Assembly (NCBI RefSeq): GCF_000350165.1
Contig: NZ_CAUI01000015.1
Location: forward strand, 62,001-126,000
From: Halanaerobium saccharolyticum subsp. saccharolyticum DSM 6643
GTDB taxonomy: Bacteria; Bacillota; Halanaerobiia; Halanaerobiales; Halanaerobiaceae
Direction of reading: 5' to 3'
Length of the DNA: 64,000 bases
Shown: in pieces, positions 1,489 through 9,309 of the stretch
Layout of the letters: the number at the start of each line of letters is the position of its first letter
Position numbering within the stretch: the stretch's first letter is position 1
The notes under the pieces: generated by a model
The model's database searches: none
Seen by the model: the letters and a program-made list of their open reading frames with translations, nothing else
Told to the model about the DNA's origin: nothing
Position numbers and translations under genes: made by a program

Positions 1489-2076
1489 TTATTTCAAAAA
1501 TACATGGTTACCAATTGTTACTACTTTGGTTCTGCCAGCGAAAAAATCCGGATTCCTTGATTTTACAGGATTATAAAAATAAAGACTACCCTGACTAGGA
1601 TCCATACCGCTAACGGCATCATAAGCAGCTTTAAAAGCATCATTATTTGGCGAAAGATTTATCATTCCATTTTCTACAGGTGTAAACTGTCCTGATTGGA
1701 ATACAACCCCTTTAATAGAATTAGGAAAAGAGGGATGATAGACTCTATTAATTATAACAGCCCCTACAGCAACTTTGCCCTCATAACTCTCTCCTCTTGC
1801 CTCTGCATTAATTATACTGGCCAATATTTCCATTTCCTCAGCATTAAAGTTTTTGTAATTATAAAAATTATCGGGTGCAGCTTCTTGATTTTTGTCACTT
1901 CCACTACCCAGAACTACCATTAAAAACATTAAGCCCAGACCAGTATAAATATCTTCTTTCTCAATTGAAGCAGCTTTTACTTCAGGCGCTGGCACCAGAA
2001 ATGGTATAAATACTGTATTTAATAATATAATCATAGTCAAAATAACTATAACTTTTTTAAAGTGAATCTTATCCAT
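1489..2076 (-). CDS. Exported SleB/CwlJ-type cell wall hydrolase
   Basis: The protein has an N-terminal hydrophobic export segment (IVILTMIILLNTVFIPFLV) and a C-terminal Hydrolase_2 (SleB-like) domain. Recognisable parts are the NAEARGESYEGKVAVGAVIINRV core with its likely catalytic Glu, SGQFTPV, and LYFYNP near the end. The family cleaves peptidoglycan glycan strands in spores or vegetative walls. The start is set at the second ATG (2076), which is 7 nt after AGGAG; the ATG at 2082 is too close to that site. A paralogue with LysM domains lies at 58325-59257. The gene is last in the minus-strand envelope block and ends at the bidirectional terminator. Whether it acts in sporulation or in general wall turnover cannot be decided. 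Confidence 0.88.
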   Translation of the reverse strand: MDKIHFKKVIVILTMIILLNTVFIPFLVPAPEVKAASIEKEDIYTGLGLMFLMVVLGSGSDKNQEAAPDNFYNYKNFNAEEMEILASIINAEARGESYEGKVAVGAVIINRVYHPSFPNSIKGVVFQSGQFTPVENGMINLSPNNDAFKAAYDAVSGMDPSQGSLYFYNPVKSRNPDFFAGRTKVVTIGNHVFLK

Positions 2077-2092
2077 AACCATTCTCCTTAAT

Positions 2093-2149: not shown

Positions 2150-2875
2150 TTAAAGTAATAGTGCCAGTAATGCAAGGCCACCAATTATATAACCAGTTCT
2201 AAGGGAATCTCCACCTTCGTCCTCTTCGGCTGTTTTTTCACCTTCTAAAACTTCTATTCTATTTTCTAATTCTTGTATTCTAGTCATGTTTACACTCTGA
2301 TTATCTTCAAGTTCCTGTAATTTTTGTCCAGAAACTCCTTCTTCCTTCAATGCTGCTAATTCATCTTCTAAAGCAGCAATTTGGCTATCTATTTGATTAA
2401 CACTTTCTTCTAGAGTTGATACTTTTTGAACATCTTCATTCATTTCTGCAATTTCTACATTAAGATTTGCAATGTCTTCATTTTGAATTTGATTAGTATC
2501 TTCTAAATTATTTAATCTTTCCTCAAAATCTTTCTGTCTTTGAGCAACTGTAACAAGTTCATCTCTAAATTCTAATGACAGCTCACGAATAACATCTACA
2601 TCTTCTTCACTTAAGTTTTGTGAACTTGTGCTACCAACTGTATTTTCTAAAACATTTGCAATTATTTCTGCCATTTCATATCTTGTCAATGGCTCTTCAC
2701 CATTAAAATCTTCTCCGGAATACAAGCTTAAATATCCCCTCTGAGCTAAGGTTTGAACACTGTCATAAGCCCAGTGATCACGTGGAACATCGTCAAATTG
2801 CTGTGCAAATGCACCCACACTAAAAATTAAAATTAATAACACTGTTAAAGAAATTACTTTTTTGTAGTTAAACAT
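2150..2875 (-). CDS. Exported SLH-domain / coiled-coil protein with C-terminal membrane anchor
   Basis: This 241-residue protein has a signal peptide (cleavage likely after AFA, residue 24), one SLH domain (about 26-80: FDDVPRDHWAYDSVQTLAQRG, then LTRYEMAEIIANVL), a coiled coil rich in Glu, Asn and Leu (about 95-215), and a C-terminal hydrophobic helix (TGYIIGGLALLALLL) running to the last residue. SLH domains bind secondary cell-wall polymer or peptidoglycan. The layout matches spacer proteins of other diderms, such as Thermotoga Omp-alpha, that tether the outer membrane to peptidoglycan. ATG directly follows the TAG of the upstream cohesin-like gene, with GGAGG 8 nt before the start inside that gene, so the two are probably translationally coupled. 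The tether role is inferred. Confidence 0.85.
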   Translation of the reverse strand: MFNYKKVISLTVLLILIFSVGAFAQQFDDVPRDHWAYDSVQTLAQRGYLSLYSGEDFNGEEPLTRYEMAEIIANVLENTVGSTSSQNLSEEDVDVIRELSLEFRDELVTVAQRQKDFEERLNNLEDTNQIQNEDIANLNVEIAEMNEDVQKVSTLEESVNQIDSQIAALEDELAALKEEGVSGQKLQELEDNQSVNMTRIQELENRIEVLEGEKTAEEDEGGDSLRTGYIIGGLALLALLL

Positions 2876-4870
2876 CTAATTTTCCTCCTCTAAAATATTT
2901 CTAAGTTCAATTTCAAATGGAGATCCAGCTCCATTGACTGCTTCTAAATCTTTAATATTAATACTCCCAGGACTATCCTTTTTAAGCTTAAAATGAATAG
3001 TTGCAATAACGCCATTAGCTTTGTTAAAAGGAAACTCCTGATTAAAAATAATTTTTCCTGGTTCAGACTTATCTGGTCTATTAAATGGTAATAAGTTATT
3101 ATCTCCTACGAAAAAATCACCTCTTGAAATATGAGTTAACAATAAATTATCATTATCATAGTTCAGTTCAAAAGCGATTTTTTCAGCTTCTGCTATATTT
3201 GCAGCTATAATATCAACTGCATAATAGTCTTCATCTCGCTGTCCTTCAGTTGCTTTAAGGAGAATCAAAGGCCTTAATTGCGGTAAGTTTATTTCTTCAA
3301 CTATAGTTTTTTGATAGTTGTTTATACCAGTAACTTTTAAGGCAAAAGGTAAAGTTCCATCCACTCTTAAAGCTTCGATTGCCCAGTTAATATTAATATT
3401 TTCTCCATCTCTTAACATGCCAAGATGTTTTTTGCTTTTTTCACTGCTGGCTGCAACTAAACCAGGGGGTAAAATCAATTCTGCCTGGACACCATATAAC
3501 GATGTTTCTCCAGAATTATTAATCTCAGCCTGTATCCTAAATGGATTAGGTTCTAATCTACCATCAACTGATTGAACATCTTCCATTAAAGTAATATTAG
3601 CATTTAATTCTGGTGGACCTAAAAATTTAACTCTTCGTTCAACTTCATTTGAATCGGTATTATCTGCATCTACTATTACTCGATAAGTCATAGCTTCTGG
3701 AATATTATCTCTATTTTTAGCACTAACATTCCAGGTTATTTGCTCTATATCTCCTGATGCCATATCACCAAGTTTTCTATTTGCTTGATCTGCCCGAAAG
3801 TTATCAGGAAGTTCAATATTTAAAGAAACATTACGAGCATTAATTTCTGATGTGTTTTCTAAATATGCAACTACAGGAAAACTCTGATTATTATCATCTA
3901 AAGTAACTTCTGCAGGTGAAGTTACACCTAAAGATAAAATACCGGGAACAATTGTAATTCCACCAAGCCCATATTTAGTAATATATGTTTTGCTTTCACC
4001 TGGTTCAATGATTTCTGGAACCCAGTACATAGCTACTGCGCTATCAATCTCGTATTCACCTTTACGAATGAATTCCTGCCCAGGATTAAAATCAAAATCC
4101 CAGACTCCATCTGCTAAGCTTCCCCAATCAGAAAAATAAACTCTATCTGGAGTACTGACATCAGGTCCAATAAATGAACCCTGAGAAGTTACCTGTGGAT
4201 TAGATACACTATCAAAGGCCTGCCAAAAATCATCAAGCTGTTTATCATAATATAATTTATCAGCTGCTATTGTATCTTCACCCAATCTAAATGGGGCTCC
4301 ATCATTTTCTCCTAACATTGTATCAAGCATTATTCTTAAACCAATTTTTTCCTGTTCATCACCTTCATTGATAATTCTATATTGAATTTGAACACTATCT
4401 GCAAGTCCAGTGGTTGAACTTTTTACTATTTTTAAAATTTGCTCAACAACAACATCATCAAAACGAGTTTTAGTTACTAATTGATTATCTTCAACAGTTG
4501 GTTCCTGAATAACTTCTCCATATTTTGCTTTATCTCCTGCACGTCTTTCAGTTGAACCTCCAAAAACATATTTTTGGTTATTAATCCAAAGTGATGTATA
4601 GGAAGTCCAGGGATTTGGTCTTCCATAAACTAAAGGTTTATTATCGTCATTTTCTCGGGCAGGAGCACCTCCAGTAGTTTCTACAGCAAATCTACCCTGT
4701 GAGTTCTCATTTTGATTAACCACAATCACTATATATTCATTCCCAAAACGAAGATTATTATGCTCATCTTCATTTTGAAAAAAATTATCCTGTGCTGCTG
4801 CATTAAAGCTTAAACTGAAAATTAACAGCAGAGTAATTAAAGTTATACTTTTATATTTATCCATTAACAA
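2876..4870 (-). CDS. Exported multidomain protein with Ig-like repeats and C-terminal cohesin-like domain
   Basis: The protein has a signal peptide (SITLITLLLIFSLSFNAAAQ), then a beta-rich N-terminal region of no recognised family (about 40-310). Two NEW3/DUF11-like Ig modules follow (about 310-415 and 420-530), marked by phrases such as 'lenTseinArNVslnieLP' and 'inNSGetslYgVqaeLiLP'. The C-terminal module (about 533-658) resembles a cohesin: it has 'FELNYDNDNLLLTH', then a 'GVIATIHFKLKKDSPGSI' strand. Translation probably starts at TTG 4870, abutting the TAA of tonB, because GGAGG lies 7 nt upstream; the ATG at 4864 is 13 nt away. It lies between tonB and the SLH protein in one transcription unit. 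It is probably periplasmic or outer-membrane associated. Function unknown. Confidence 0.7.
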   Translation of the reverse strand: MLMDKYKSITLITLLLIFSLSFNAAAQDNFFQNEDEHNNLRFGNEYIVIVVNQNENSQGRFAVETTGGAPARENDDNKPLVYGRPNPWTSYTSLWINNQKYVFGGSTERRAGDKAKYGEVIQEPTVEDNQLVTKTRFDDVVVEQILKIVKSSTTGLADSVQIQYRIINEGDEQEKIGLRIMLDTMLGENDGAPFRLGEDTIAADKLYYDKQLDDFWQAFDSVSNPQVTSQGSFIGPDVSTPDRVYFSDWGSLADGVWDFDFNPGQEFIRKGEYEIDSAVAMYWVPEIIEPGESKTYITKYGLGGITIVPGILSLGVTSPAEVTLDDNNQSFPVVAYLENTSEINARNVSLNIELPDNFRADQANRKLGDMASGDIEQITWNVSAKNRDNIPEAMTYRVIVDADNTDSNEVERRVKFLGPPELNANITLMEDVQSVDGRLEPNPFRIQAEINNSGETSLYGVQAELILPPGLVAASSEKSKKHLGMLRDGENININWAIEALRVDGTLPFALKVTGINNYQKTIVEEINLPQLRPLILLKATEGQRDEDYYAVDIIAANIAEAEKIAFELNYDNDNLLLTHISRGDFFVGDNNLLPFNRPDKSEPGKIIFNQEFPFNKANGVIATIHFKLKKDSPGSINIKDLEAVNGAGSPFEIELRNILEEEN

Positions 4871-5953
4871 TTACTCACCTCCAGAAATAAAATCAACTTG
4901 GCCTATATCTACTTCTACCTGACTGTTATCTGATTGATCTATATAATATCTTACTGAAACAGGAATTCTATATGCCTGCTGATATTCTTTAAACTCCCAG
5001 CCGTGTTCTAAGGTTAATTGGGCAACTCTATCCATAGAATCATAACCTGAAGACTCGATAATATCAATATTATTGACATTGCCTCCTGGTGAAATTTCGA
5101 CCATTAGACTAACTGTTCCTTCAGAACGACTACCGACTAGATCCTTAGGAAATGTTGGCGGCTCTATTAAACCAATTAAGTCACCTGAAGTCGGTGGTGG
5201 AGGTGGGGGTGGAGCAGTTTCCTCCTGAGTTGTATTATTATTTTCAACATTATCTTCTGATTCTATTGTTTCAGTATTATCGTTATCAACTTCTGTATTT
5301 TCTTCTGCAGCATCAGTTTCCTCATCTGCAGCTGAATCTACATTTTCTTCAACAACTTCATTTTGAGAAGATTCTTCTTCCTGAACTACCTCAACTTCAC
5401 TTTCACTATCCTCACTAGCCATAATTTCTTCCTCAGTTTCTTCAGCTTCTGGTTCTGGCTCTGGTTCAGCTTCTGGCTCTGGTTCAGCTTCCTGCACAAC
5501 TTCTGCTTCGGGTTCTGTTTCTTCAGCTGGCTCAGTGTTAGGCTCTGGTTCTGTTTCAGCTTCTTCTACAGGCTCTTCTTGAATTTCTGGTTCTGGTTCA
5601 GGCTCTGGTTCAGGCTCAGGTATTTCTTCCTCTGTAATTTCAGAAACCTGTTCCTCTTCTGGTTCATTTTGTTCTGGTTCAGGCTCTGGTTCCTCAATTT
5701 CTTCTTCTATTTCCTGCGGTTCTTCGGCTGCTGGATCCTCAGTTAATTCTGTATCCTCCTCTGCAGTTTCTTCTTCTATGGGTGCGGGTTGATAGTCAAC
5801 CAGCTGTACATAACCATAATCATTTAAATCGCTATCACTTTGAGCACTACCATGCAGAAATCCTATAGGAAGAAAATAAAGAATTAAAAGGTGTAAAATT
5901 ATTGATATACTTACATAAAGTAGTAATTTTCTGTTATCATTATTGTTAGGCAT
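4871..5953 (-). CDS. tonB: TonB-like energy transducer with acidic Pro/Glu linker
   Basis: Residues 9-33 form an N-terminal transmembrane helix (LLLYVSISIILHLLILYFL) containing the His expected in TonB-like signal anchors. A very long linker (about 45-255) follows, dominated by Glu-Pro dipeptides, then APPPPPPP, and a C-terminal TonB fold (about 265-345: PPTFPKDLVGSRSEGTVSLM, then 'IIESSGYDSMDRVAQLTLEHG' with VRYYI). TonB spans the periplasm and transmits ExbB/ExbD proton-motive energy to outer-membrane transporters. Its position straight after exbB-exbD supports the call. Unlike enterobacterial TonB, the linker shows no Lys-Pro block. No TonB-dependent receptor gene lies in the window, so the substrate is unknown. 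Confidence 0.85.
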   Translation of the reverse strand: MPNNNDNRKLLLYVSISIILHLLILYFLPIGFLHGSAQSDSDLNDYGYVQLVDYQPAPIEEETAEEDTELTEDPAAEEPQEIEEEIEEPEPEPEQNEPEEEQVSEITEEEIPEPEPEPEPEPEIQEEPVEEAETEPEPNTEPAEETEPEAEVVQEAEPEPEAEPEPEPEAEETEEEIMASEDSESEVEVVQEEESSQNEVVEENVDSAADEETDAAEENTEVDNDNTETIESEDNVENNNTTQEETAPPPPPPPTSGDLIGLIEPPTFPKDLVGSRSEGTVSLMVEISPGGNVNNIDIIESSGYDSMDRVAQLTLEHGWEFKEYQQAYRIPVSVRYYIDQSDNSQVEVDIGQVDFISGGE

Positions 5954-5968
5954 AAATTCACCATCCTA

Positions 5969-6373
5969 TTAACTATCTTCTTTATCTGCCGCTAATGCTA
6001 ATCTAGTTATGCCGACATTTCGCATCCCATCCATTAGTGAAACCACATTTTCATAACGGGTATTTTTATCAGCACTAATTACGATTGTTAAATTATTATT
6101 TTCATTATTTGCAAGTTCTGCCTCAGAAATTATTTGGTTTAATGCTAAAGATTGGTCTTCATAATAATAATTACCTTCTGAATCAATCTGAACAATAAAA
6201 TTTTGTGTATTCTGCTCTGTAGCAGTTACAGCTTTTGGAAGCTGCATTTCGATACCTTCCGGGGTAGTTCTAAATGTAGTAAAAAGCATGAAAAATACTA
6301 AAAGAAAAAATATAACATCAATCATTGGGATTATATTAATTGAACTTTTTTTCTTAAGAGTAGTTTTGAACAT
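5969..6373 (-). CDS. exbD: ExbD/TolR-type biopolymer transport protein
   Basis: The protein has a single transmembrane helix near the N-terminus (IPMIDVIFFLLVFFMLFTT) containing the conserved proton-path Asp, then a periplasmic ExbD/TolR domain. It forms the proton channel with ExbB that powers TonB. The start is placed at ATG 6373, preceded by GAGGTG at 6-nt spacing; the longer reading frame would begin inside that site. It overlaps the end of exbB by 20 nt, as expected for a coupled operon. Confidence 0.93.
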   Translation of the reverse strand: MFKTTLKKKSSINIIPMIDVIFFLLVFFMLFTTFRTTPEGIEMQLPKAVTATEQNTQNFIVQIDSEGNYYYEDQSLALNQIISEAELANNENNNLTIVISADKNTRYENVVSLMDGMRNVGITRLALAADKEDS

Positions 6374-7004
6374 CACTTTCACCTCTATTACTGCTTACCA
6401 CATCAACAATTTCTACCATATTTAAATTCATTTGATGAGCTCTTCTTTCAACTTTATGTGCAAAATAAGAGTAGAATATAGCAGTTGGAATAGCAATTAT
6501 TAAACCAAGGGCAGTACTAATTAATGCTGCTGCGATACCAGAACTAATCTGAGCTGGATTTGCAGCTCCAGCAGCTGTACCAAGTATATTAAAACTACTG
6601 ATAATTCCAATCACTGTTCCCAAAAGACCAAGTAAGGGTGAAATCATTGCGATAACATCTAAAATTGGTAAATGTCTTTCCATTTTCTTGATTTCATCTT
6701 CACCAACAGCCTGTAAAACTTCTCTTAAACGCGATGGGTTTTCACTATTATGAGCTAAAGCAGCTGACAATAGTTTAGCATTTGTTCCTTTTTTACCTTT
6801 TAACTCATTTAAAGCACTTAAAATATCGCCTTCTTCAACTAAAATTTCTATTCTTTTTATCAACCTTACATTGTTATCATTGTTTTTGTAAAAGAAAATT
6901 GTTTTTTCAATTATTACTGCTAGACTAAATACTGATGCAATTAAAAGTGGTATAGTCATCGGTCCACCAAGTGTAAATAAATTTAATATACGATTAAAAT
7001 CCAA
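6354..7004 (-). CDS. exbB: ExbB/TolQ/MotA-family proton channel subunit
   Basis: Three membrane spans are visible: MTIPLLIASVFSLAVIIEKT, then ILDVIAMISPLLGLLGTVIG, then SSGIAAALISTALGLIIAIP with the Thr/Ser-rich channel face. This is the MotA_TolQ_ExbB domain. ExbB anchors and drives ExbD and TonB in the cytoplasmic membrane. TTG at 7004 is the likely start, 8 nt after GGAG; the upstream GTG lies within that site. It is the first gene of the exbB-exbD-tonB unit, about 90 nt downstream of the histidine kinase gene. Confidence 0.93.
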   Translation of the reverse strand: MDFNRILNLFTLGGPMTIPLLIASVFSLAVIIEKTIFFYKNNDNNVRLIKRIEILVEEGDILSALNELKGKKGTNAKLLSAALAHNSENPSRLREVLQAVGEDEIKKMERHLPILDVIAMISPLLGLLGTVIGIISSFNILGTAAGAANPAQISSGIAAALISTALGLIIAIPTAIFYSYFAHKVERRAHQMNLNMVEIVDVVSSNRGESDVQNYS

Positions 7005-7095
7005 TCCAATCACTCCTCTTAAATCAATAATATAATAATTAATTCTGCACTAATTTCTAAATTCAATATCAATATTAATAATCCTTTAATATAAG

Positions 7096-8493
7096 CTATA
7101 TTTGTGGAAAAATCAGTTCAAATACAGTTCCGTTTTCTCCACTCTTAACCTTAATTTCGCCTTGATGAGCATCCATTAATTCTTTAACTACTGCTAAACC
7201 AATACCAGTACCTTGATTTTTAGAATTTCTAGATTTGTCAGCACGATAAAATCTTTCAAAAATATAAGGCAGATCTTCCTTGCTAATACCTACTCCACTA
7301 TCTTTAATATGAATAATTAAATTATCCTGTTTTTTAAAATTTCTAATTTCGATATTTCCATTAGCTGTATTATACTTTATTGCATTTTCAATAATATTAT
7401 TGAAAATTTGAAACAGACTATCTTTATCACCTTTAACATAAACTTTTGGCTCAAGTTCTAATTTTAAATCAATATTTTTTTTATTTATATAATTTTGCTG
7501 CTGCTTAATTATTTTTTTGATAATTGGTGTTAAATTTAATTTTTCTTCCTTTAAATTAAATATTTTATTTTGAGCATTAGCAAACTCATTTAATTTTTCA
7601 ATTAGAATAGCCATTCTCTGACTTTCTTCCTGCATTTCTTTGATAGTTTCTTGATCAACCTTCATTTTGCCATCTTCTATCGCTTCTAAATATCCTTTGA
7701 TCGTTGTCAAAGGTGTTCTTAATTCATGAGCTAAATCTGAAGTGGATTCTTTTCTAATCTTCTCTAACTTAAGCAGCTTTCTACTCATTAAGTTAAAAGC
7801 ATCGATTAACTCTGTTAATTCGTCATCTCCTTTACTCTTAATATTCTGCTGATAATTACCTTGTGCTACATCTAGAGCTGCATTTTTAATTTCGATTATG
7901 GGGCTGGTAATTTTTTTAGATATAATAAAGGAAAGTATTATTATTAAAAAAGTAACAAGCAAAGCACTTAAAACAATTGCTCGATAAATATTATTTTTAA
8001 AATAACTATATAGTTCTGAATCAATCTGATTTTCGCTAGTAAGCTGCTTCCAGTGTAAGCTCAGTATCTTTTCTCCGTTAGCAAAAATTTCTGTAACTTT
8101 ATTTTGACCTGGAAAATCACTCGGAAGCTGTCTCATCATATTCATATGATTCATTCCATTATTATGCATTCCCATTCGTCTCATCATATTAGCCATTTGA
8201 TTATTTTGAGCAGGAAAATATATGAATTCTCCACTACTATCCTCAACCCAAATCGGAATTCTATTGGTACGGCTAAAATTTTCAATCAAAGATCTAATAC
8301 TACTGAAGTCATTTTTCTCATAATTTTCACTAATCATCTCAGCAAGTTCACTAATATTTTCTTCACGCTGTAAATTGATAAAATTATCAAATCTTTCTCC
8401 TATCGAAAAATTTATGAAAACACCAACTAACAGTAAAGAAAAAATAACCAGAATTAAAAATATAATAAATAACTTTTTCCCAAGTTTAGACAT
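7096..8493 (-). CDS. Membrane sensor histidine kinase with Met-rich sensor loop
   Basis: Transmembrane helix 1 spans residues 8-30 and helix 2 spans 172-192. They enclose an extracytoplasmic sensor in which residues 100-120 hold nine Met and two His (QMANMM, MGMHNNGMNHMNMM). Next come HAMP (about 193-245), HisKA with phospho-acceptor His256 in SDLAHELRTPLTT, and a HATPase domain with N box (NIIENAIKYN), DSGVGI and GTGIGLAVV. Such a Met/His cluster suggests soft-metal (copper or silver) sensing, as in CusS-like kinases. No metal-export gene is nearby, so this is inference. Its ATG overlaps the TAA of the response regulator by 1 nt (TAATG), a sign of translational coupling. Confidence 0.93.
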   Translation of the reverse strand: MSKLGKKLFIIFLILVIFSLLLVGVFINFSIGERFDNFINLQREENISELAEMISENYEKNDFSSIRSLIENFSRTNRIPIWVEDSSGEFIYFPAQNNQMANMMRRMGMHNNGMNHMNMMRQLPSDFPGQNKVTEIFANGEKILSLHWKQLTSENQIDSELYSYFKNNIYRAIVLSALLVTFLIIILSFIISKKITSPIIEIKNAALDVAQGNYQQNIKSKGDDELTELIDAFNLMSRKLLKLEKIRKESTSDLAHELRTPLTTIKGYLEAIEDGKMKVDQETIKEMQEESQRMAILIEKLNEFANAQNKIFNLKEEKLNLTPIIKKIIKQQQNYINKKNIDLKLELEPKVYVKGDKDSLFQIFNNIIENAIKYNTANGNIEIRNFKKQDNLIIHIKDSGVGISKEDLPYIFERFYRADKSRNSKNQGTGIGLAVVKELMDAHQGEIKVKSGENGTVFELIFPQI

Positions 8494-9170
8494 TAAATAT
8501 CACCTAGAAACTTATATCCTGCTCCATAAACAGTAACAATATATTGATCTTTTTCTAGATCTAGTTTTTTTCTAATATTTTTTATATGGGCATCAATTGT
8601 TCTATCAAAACCACTAAATTCTAATCCCATAACTTTATCTGCTAATTGTTCCCGACTTAAAACCTGCTCAGAATTATTAATTAATGTCATTAATATTTTG
8701 AATTCAGTAGTTGTTAAATCACAATTCTTAGCATTTTTTTTGACAATCATTTCTTCAGGATATATTTTATATTGTCCATCATTTAAAGTGATGATGCTGG
8801 CCTTTTCCTTATCTTTACTTCGTCTTAAAATAGCTTTAACCCGCATCAACAATTCTCTAGGACTAAATGGTTTACTTAGGTAATCATCTGCGCCATAATT
8901 AAATCCATCGATTTTATCTTCTTCACCGCTTTTGGCAGTTAACATAATAATTGCTACATCCGAAATCTGTCTGATTTTCTGACAAACCTCTTCGCCACTT
9001 ATTTTGGGCAGCATCAAGTCTAAAATAATTAAATCAATCTCATTATTTTTAAAAATATCTAAGGCCTGCTCTCCATCTTCAGCTTCTAAAATAGAATAAT
9101 CTTCTTTTAAATAACTTTTTATAATTTTTCTGATCTTAGCTTCGTCTTCTACAATTAATATTTTTTCCAT
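8493..9170 (-). CDS. OmpR/PhoB-family response regulator
   Basis: The receiver domain (about 1-115) has acidic residues in VEDE, phospho-acceptor Asp51 in LIILDLMLP, TAKSG, and Lys in YLSKPF. A winged-helix Trans_reg_C domain follows (LTTTEFKILMTLI ... VLSREQLADKVMG ... VTVYGAGYKF). The start is ATG 9170, 6 nt after GGGGTG; a longer frame to 9188 lacks a better site. It is partnered with the overlapping histidine kinase downstream. A sigma-A-like promoter and a perfect inverted repeat precede it and could serve autoregulation. Confidence 0.93.
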   Translation of the reverse strand: MEKILIVEDEAKIRKIIKSYLKEDYSILEAEDGEQALDIFKNNEIDLIILDLMLPKISGEEVCQKIRQISDVAIIMLTAKSGEEDKIDGFNYGADDYLSKPFSPRELLMRVKAILRRSKDKEKASIITLNDGQYKIYPEEMIVKKNAKNCDLTTTEFKILMTLINNSEQVLSREQLADKVMGLEFSGFDRTIDAHIKNIRKKLDLEKDQYIVTVYGAGYKFLGDI

Positions 9171-9201
9171 CTTGACACCCCAAAACATCTTTGAAATTTT
9201 A

Positions 9202-9274: not shown

Positions 9275-9309
9275 AAAAAAAATCTGTCTGCCAGAATGGC
9301 AAACAGACA
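9275..9309 (-). terminator. Rho-independent terminator after spoVS
   Basis: On the minus strand a hairpin (TCTGTTTGCCA / TGGCAGACAGA with one bulge) is followed by a run of T residues, just after the spoVS stop. Confidence 0.85.

Follow-up and report, generated by a model that had tools for sequence, protein, structure and literature searches.

In the Tol-Pal system, according to a passage of PMC8928145, proton-motive force dissociates TolB from Pal and thereby frees Pal for binding to the cell wall. One survey placed Tol-Pal only in Gracilicutes and, among diderm Firmicutes, Ton only in Negativicutes (PMC12204202), and diderm Firmicutes have been reported without pal and tolB (PMC8871954). 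To the question of how an outer membrane is maintained and constricted where Tol-Pal is missing, a concrete candidate answer was found in Halanaerobium saccharolyticum subsp. saccharolyticum DSM 6643, in a 64,000-nucleotide stretch of contig NZ_CAUI01000015.1 (positions 62,001 to 126,000) that is called the window below. The candidate is a probable operon that encodes ExbB, ExbD and TonB together with two exported proteins of 664 and 241 residues, here named P664 and P241, and a cell-wall hydrolase. With a probability of a little under 0.6, we read this block as a proton-powered trans-envelope machine for outer-membrane upkeep, not nutrient import.

Among described SLH proteins, OmpA1 (Omp-alpha) of Thermotoga combines an SLH domain, a coil of 316 residues and, at the C terminus, about 20 hydrophobic residues by which it may be anchored in the toga (PMC3387000). 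SLH proteins of Halanaerobiales have been named as likely OmpM homologs and experimental targets in PMC5007114, a paper from which the words TonB, ExbB and Pal are absent, and weakening of the SLH tether has been proposed as one cause of the diderm-to-monoderm transition (PMC10628300). No description of the present operon was found in the open-access literature searched. The motor is of a known kind, while novelty appears to lie in the adaptor, in its combination of folds and in its being paired with an SLH tether.

Six genes lie head to tail on the minus strand between positions 1489 and 7013 of the window:

6354..7013, minus strand, ExbB (MotA/TolQ/ExbB proton channel), PF01618 with an E-value (E) of 6e-33
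5969..6382, minus strand, ExbD/TolR, PF02472, E 8e-31
4871..5953, minus strand, TonB, 360 residues with a long Glu/Pro-rich linker, PF03544, E 2e-10
2876..4870, minus strand, P664, candidate exported adaptor of 664 residues with a signal peptide
2150..2875, minus strand, P241, exported SLH/coiled-coil protein with a hydrophobic C-terminal tail
1489..2082, minus strand, SleB-like cell-wall hydrolase, PF07486, E 1e-33, the NCBIfam SleB model being below its cut-off

The first five had been recognized in a reading of the DNA without database searches (the original prediction), and Pfam confirmed MotA_ExbB, ExbD, TonB_C and SLH among them; the sixth gene and a mutarotase-fold domain of P664, the most conserved part of that protein, go beyond that reading. 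The stop-start abutment described for the TonB/P664 and P664/P241 junctions was found at 4871/4870 and 2876/2875, where the TTG start of P664 abuts the TonB stop and the ATG start of P241 abuts the P664 stop. ExbD and ExbB genes overlap by 29 nucleotides. The extent of ExbB to 7004, as first given, agrees with an in-frame TTG that has the better-spaced Shine-Dalgarno site, although a GTG at 7013 is also a possible start.

In a profile search of the class (Halanaerobiia), 57 of 59 genomes had one copy each of P664, with all 30 genera represented. Of the 38 genomes of the order (Halanaerobiales), 36 carried it once, with TonB_C matches just upstream of it throughout the order. Gene order was compared in 72 loci, of which 20 belonged to the order, 18 others to the class and 34 to another 27 families within the phylum. 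The two exported genes were found beside exbBD-tonB in all three groups, which bears out the linkage on which the original prediction turned, and their order with respect to TonB was fixed. Thus, the five-gene order ExbB-ExbD-TonB-P664-P241 recurred in loci of the 27 families outside the class, P241 stood directly 3' of P664 in all 72 loci, and the four junctions of the block were all tight and same-stranded in 61, which exceeds chance; in the remaining 11 a contig ended, the TonB gene was split or very divergent, or the start codon was an artefact. The longer order that ends with the hydrolase was identical in the 20 loci of the order, as far as contigs reach. Linkage of the hydrolase was confined to the class, being present in every locus read of the order (n=20) and in none from families outside the class. 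Pairwise distances of P664 correlated with those of ExbB (r 0.81), ExbD (r 0.82) and the SLH region of P241 (r 0.67), as expected for a jointly inherited unit, to which common species history contributes too. Carriers named in a separate scan for P664 relatives, from the best 80 of 275 candidate stretches, included Halanaerobium, Halanaerobacter, Orenia, Natroniella, Halonatronum and metagenome-assembled genomes of Limnochordia. Several families of the class have an additional gene between those for P241 and the hydrolase; its product of 135-158 residues is, to judge from the sequence, probably a nucleoside-diphosphate kinase.

The association of the block with an outer membrane was evident from an evenly drawn sample of 398 genomes of one phylum, to which the wider search for P664 was confined. 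Full-length P664 was found in 88 of these genomes and partial matches in 20, and 102 had Omp85, the barrel for outer-membrane assembly. Among genomes with full-length P664, 87/88 also had Omp85 as opposed to 0/20 of those with partial matches. The Fisher p for the association of P664 with Omp85 was ~1e-70, a value that ignores shared ancestry, for a pattern that covers more than 30 families. Omp85 occurred without P664 in ten genomes of one family and three of another, both probably Negativicutes, as well as in one incomplete genome and one genome with a marginal Omp85 match.

No TonB-dependent receptor is encoded at the locus, as had been noted from the sequence. The sole plug domain of this genome, at C14:164131, is 95 kilobases away from the operon and next to another ExbB-ExbD-TonB set. 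Within the order, plug domains were found in 16/38 genomes and 7/17 genera whereas P664-linked TonB was found in nearly all, and among the 88 P664 carriers of the phylum sample a plug domain was present in 31 and not found in 57. By gene content, the P664-linked TonB system was thus shown to be independent of receptors in most carriers, and an ordinary TonB-receptor locus was rejected as its general role. TolB_N (PF04052) was found in 0/59 genomes of the class. The near-universal presence of a receptor-independent ExbBD-TonB operon in Halanaerobiia and Limnochordia-type lineages qualifies the statement on Ton in PMC12204202.

Features of the TonB protein were as follows:

5855..5920, minus strand, membrane helix with Ser17 and His21
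5789..5818, minus strand, D-box-like strand YGYVQLVDYQ, C-terminal to the helix
5387..5425, minus strand, short conserved linker motif IMASEDSESEVEV, from motif statistics
4946..5161, minus strand, C-terminal domain (PF03544, residues 265-336)

As in canonical Ton systems, ExbB, ExbD and TonB_C families were matched above their cut-offs and helix residues of TonB were conserved; unlike in those systems, the receptor is unlinked and absent from most carriers, and two exported proteins are in fixed linkage. The Ser17/His21 pair was nearly invariant across 25 sequences of the phylum and the membrane Asp22 of ExbD was invariant in the alignment, and because these residues are kept the motor is likely live. 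In this genome's other TonB, the one linked to the receptor (C14:159482-162832), the helix is without the Ser/His pair of the window-type TonB. The hydrophobic strand that aligns after the helix was likened to the D-box described as binding ExbD (PMC10907165), a matter of resemblance only. In the linker, which is otherwise disordered, a motif of the approximate form [VIL][LIMVFT][TAS][SAG][ED] is located some 165 residues before the C terminus; in relaxed form it was found in 31/62 TonBs versus 5% in shuffles and may be a binding site. The C-terminal domain scored above the TonB_C cut-off while tolA_full was far below its own. The best NCBIfam models for ExbB and ExbD were TolQ and TolR, both below cut-off, and this scoring was dropped as a sign of Tol origin because the receptor-linked ExbB/ExbD pair of the same genome was likewise best with TolQ and TolR.

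The fold of P664 was assigned by VIA-align together with separate modelling of its N-terminal domain (N-domain), which gave the following domains after the signal peptide:

3944..4795, minus strand, N-domain, predicted galactose-mutarotase-like supersandwich, from superposition
3278..3940, minus strand, two immunoglobulin (Ig)/NEW3-like domains, Z ~12-13 to Ig-like domains by structure superposition, PF10633 in 46/57 members
2885..3277, minus strand, cohesin-fold domain

The N-domain holds most of the invariant positions of P664 (32 invariant columns over 57 sequences) and matched no Pfam family. Modelled alone with the 57 sequences, it reached a predicted local distance difference score (pLDDT) of 90.5 and a predicted template-modelling score (pTM) of 0.91, and the model superposed on galactose mutarotase 4bze (Z 16.9, 2.8 A, 214 residues) as well as on the corresponding domains of GH94 phosphorylases. 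Catalysis by galactose mutarotase requires a His, together with a Glu. No His was present among the invariant or 90%-conserved columns of the 57 N-domain sequences, and mutarotase catalysis is therefore unlikely; on the predicted fold, binding is more plausible. The protein differs further from these enzymes in the fusion of the N-domain to Ig-like and cohesin-fold domains. Relatives of the N-domain open giant proteins of 1200-2600 residues in Omp85-negative Bacillota, where they are accompanied by RHS repeats, SLH domains or lipase/RCC1 domains, and the N-domain of P664 is therefore a module of wider use in envelopes.

The description of P664 as cohesin-like held for the fold and less well for the sequence. 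Thus, the window protein fell below the threshold of the cohesin family PF00963 (0.0033), while residues 532-662 of its model superposed on cohesins (Z 14.2 to 1anu, 2.5 A) and 25/57 relatives matched the family, the best at 6e-13. This domain is the likeness to cellulosomes. It does not imply a dockerin or cellulosome system, the dockerin partners being mostly absent: dockerin PF00404 was found in 4/38 genomes of the order and not in this genome, and dockerin-based display was rejected on its absence from the other 34. The top Foldseek matches of full-length P664, integrins, had low TM-scores and were set aside as mere strings of beta domains.

The fold of the N-domain bears also on whether the block serves transport. 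In that case a ligand, such as a carbohydrate, would be taken up through an outer-membrane protein that is not linked to the block, with ExbBD-TonB supplying the energy; P664 would bind sugar as an accessory in the periplasm or at the surface and be anchored by P241. An arm domain of the TonB_C rather than the TolA kind, the galactose-mutarotase/GH94 N-domain fold of P664 and the receptors of 31/88 carriers would all suit such a role. We nevertheless consider it unlikely since 57/88 carriers are without a plug domain, the receptor, where read, adjoins the other TonB, no transporter gene was linked at the loci read, and one copy per genome, near-universal over diverse lifestyles, fits housekeeping better than substrate-specific uptake.

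P241, which the original prediction took for an SLH tether, was made up of a signal peptide and the parts listed here:

2669..2797, minus strand, single SLH domain, PF00395, E 7e-8
2216..2578, minus strand, coiled coil of variable length, from coiled-coil family matches
2153..2197, minus strand, hydrophobic tail TGYIIGGLALLALLL at the extreme C terminus

The single SLH domain supports that description, but the coiled coil and hydrophobic tail, an arrangement like that of Omp-alpha, indicate that P241 is not simply a surface tether. The likeness to Thermotoga OmpA1 is architectural only (N-terminal SLH domain, coiled coil, some 15-20 hydrophobic C-terminal residues), and P241 differs in being encoded with a TonB motor and in a protein length of 214-907 residues across families, over which the domain plan is unchanged. 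With the tethering porins OmpM and SlpA, P241 shares the SLH domain and the stalk helix that follows it, its profile matching the stalk of SlpA (7zgx, 1e-22) and that of 8bys (1e-19), from SLH proteins here taken for the published OmpM entries. P241 is without a beta-barrel, OmpA domain or lipobox, and an assignment as OmpM porin was rejected because the barrel is replaced by the short hydrophobic tail in 72/72 homologs. The tail has a shorter uncharged run than the TonB helix (median 18 vs 28) and is followed by at least 2 Lys/Arg in only 1/72 homologs, and these two properties suggest a seat in the outer membrane. The notion of the coiled coil as a ruler matched to TonB length was rejected (rho 0.08).

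On these findings we favour a force-transducing machine in which, by family homology, ExbB and ExbD would be the inner-membrane motor and TonB its arm. We propose that the TonB C-terminal domain engages P664 in place of a receptor, because their genes are invariably adjacent and receptors are absent in most carriers, and that P664 in turn handles P241, whose architecture would put the SLH domain on the cell wall and the C-terminal helix in the outer membrane, a placement also proposed for Thermotoga Omp-alpha. Proton flow through ExbBD would then move TonB, TonB would pull P664, and P664 would alter the state of the P241 tethers; the pull might load, release or redistribute these ties, keeping the outer membrane fastened and in step with the wall in growth and division. 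Tol-Pal has this task in Proteobacteria, E. coli among them. In this scheme ExbBD-TonB would parallel TolQRA, P664 would parallel TolB and P241 would parallel Pal. In Halanaerobiia, where a wall hydrolase is co-encoded, opening of the wall may be coordinated with these events.

Like Tol-Pal, the block combines within a single operon a proton-channel pair, an arm of the TonB/TolA type, a soluble exported protein and an envelope protein that binds the wall, and this operon is tied to possession of an outer membrane. Unlike in Tol-Pal, the arm carries TonB_C instead of TolA, there is no beta-propeller TolB, the predicted fold of P664 being different, and P241 has an SLH domain and a hydrophobic tail where Pal has an OmpA-like domain and lipid. 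Proteins with OmpA domains are encoded elsewhere in the genome, unlinked to the operon. Membership of Tol-Pal was rejected on TolA, TolB and Pal alike, and the machine, if the proposed contacts are right, would operate in the manner of Tol-Pal while being a different system. The trans-envelope, Tol-Pal-like machine of a diderm Firmicute that the original prediction envisaged is thus supported by conservation, receptor independence and coincidence with Omp85, its mechanism being inferred. The case rests most firmly on an invariant order of genes, their co-occurrence with an outer membrane, the receptors that are mostly absent and the absence of TolB from the class.

Several points weigh against this reading. 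The contacts among TonB, P664 and P241 are all inferred, and P664 offered no conserved sequence recognisable as a TonB-box. The two Omp85-positive families mentioned above live without the operon. The coil of P241 differs fourfold in length, without relation to the length of TonB, and the P241 tail could be located in the inner membrane. The predicted mutarotase fold suggests sugar binding, for which an adaptor of the Tol-Pal kind has no need, and tethers of the OmpM type may already be passive anchors.

Passive anchoring is central to a further explanation, in which P664 and P241 form a static scaffold between peptidoglycan and envelope while ExbBD-TonB detects or reports tension, or else controls the hydrolase. 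The hydrolase is linked across the whole class and the multi-domain beta architecture of P664 would suit a scaffold, yet we hold this to be quite unlikely: the conserved motor residues suggest active use of protons, and the hydrolase, unlinked outside the class, cannot therefore be the core output. A surface machine, in which TonB would drive display, secretion or motility by way of P664 and the cohesin fold would dock surface proteins, is very unlikely. That fold suggests a docking surface, and P664-like N-domains in the giant proteins of Omp85-negative Bacillota are a sign of exposure, but no secretion or gliding component was linked at the loci read, dockerins are absent as described and, apart from its signal peptide, P664 carries neither an anchor nor a signal for export.

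Returning to a machine for outer-membrane upkeep, a wider proposition is offered more tentatively, at somewhat less than even odds: that most diderm Firmicutes outside the Negativicutes share an undescribed proton-driven machine for tethering the outer membrane, composed of ExbBD-TonB and an SLH tether of the Omp-alpha kind, and that this machine takes the place of Tol-Pal. If this is true, energised control of tethers arose independently of Tol-Pal or predates it. The operon bears also on the diderm-to-monoderm transition, and on the same proposition its loss would be one element of the passage from a two-membrane to a one-membrane envelope.

With respect to flanking genes, a two-component pair (histidine kinase and response regulator, 7096-9188) lies on the same strand directly upstream of exbB. 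This pair was kept only within the window's own family, for which reason its genes were excluded from the unit; elsewhere the position upstream of exbB was held by spore-maturation-like, PHP-domain or other genes. The only terminator-like site on the minus strand between 1300 and 9700, at 9282-9308, is upstream of all six genes and of the two-component pair. Downstream of the block, the converging gene is presumably a gyrA-like candidate. Outside the window, at about 785-787 kilobases of C5, a MotA/ExbB protein of 654 residues matched ZorA models (E 8e-29) and is adjoined by an OmpA-domain gene, a locus that is a probable Zorya-type anti-phage system.

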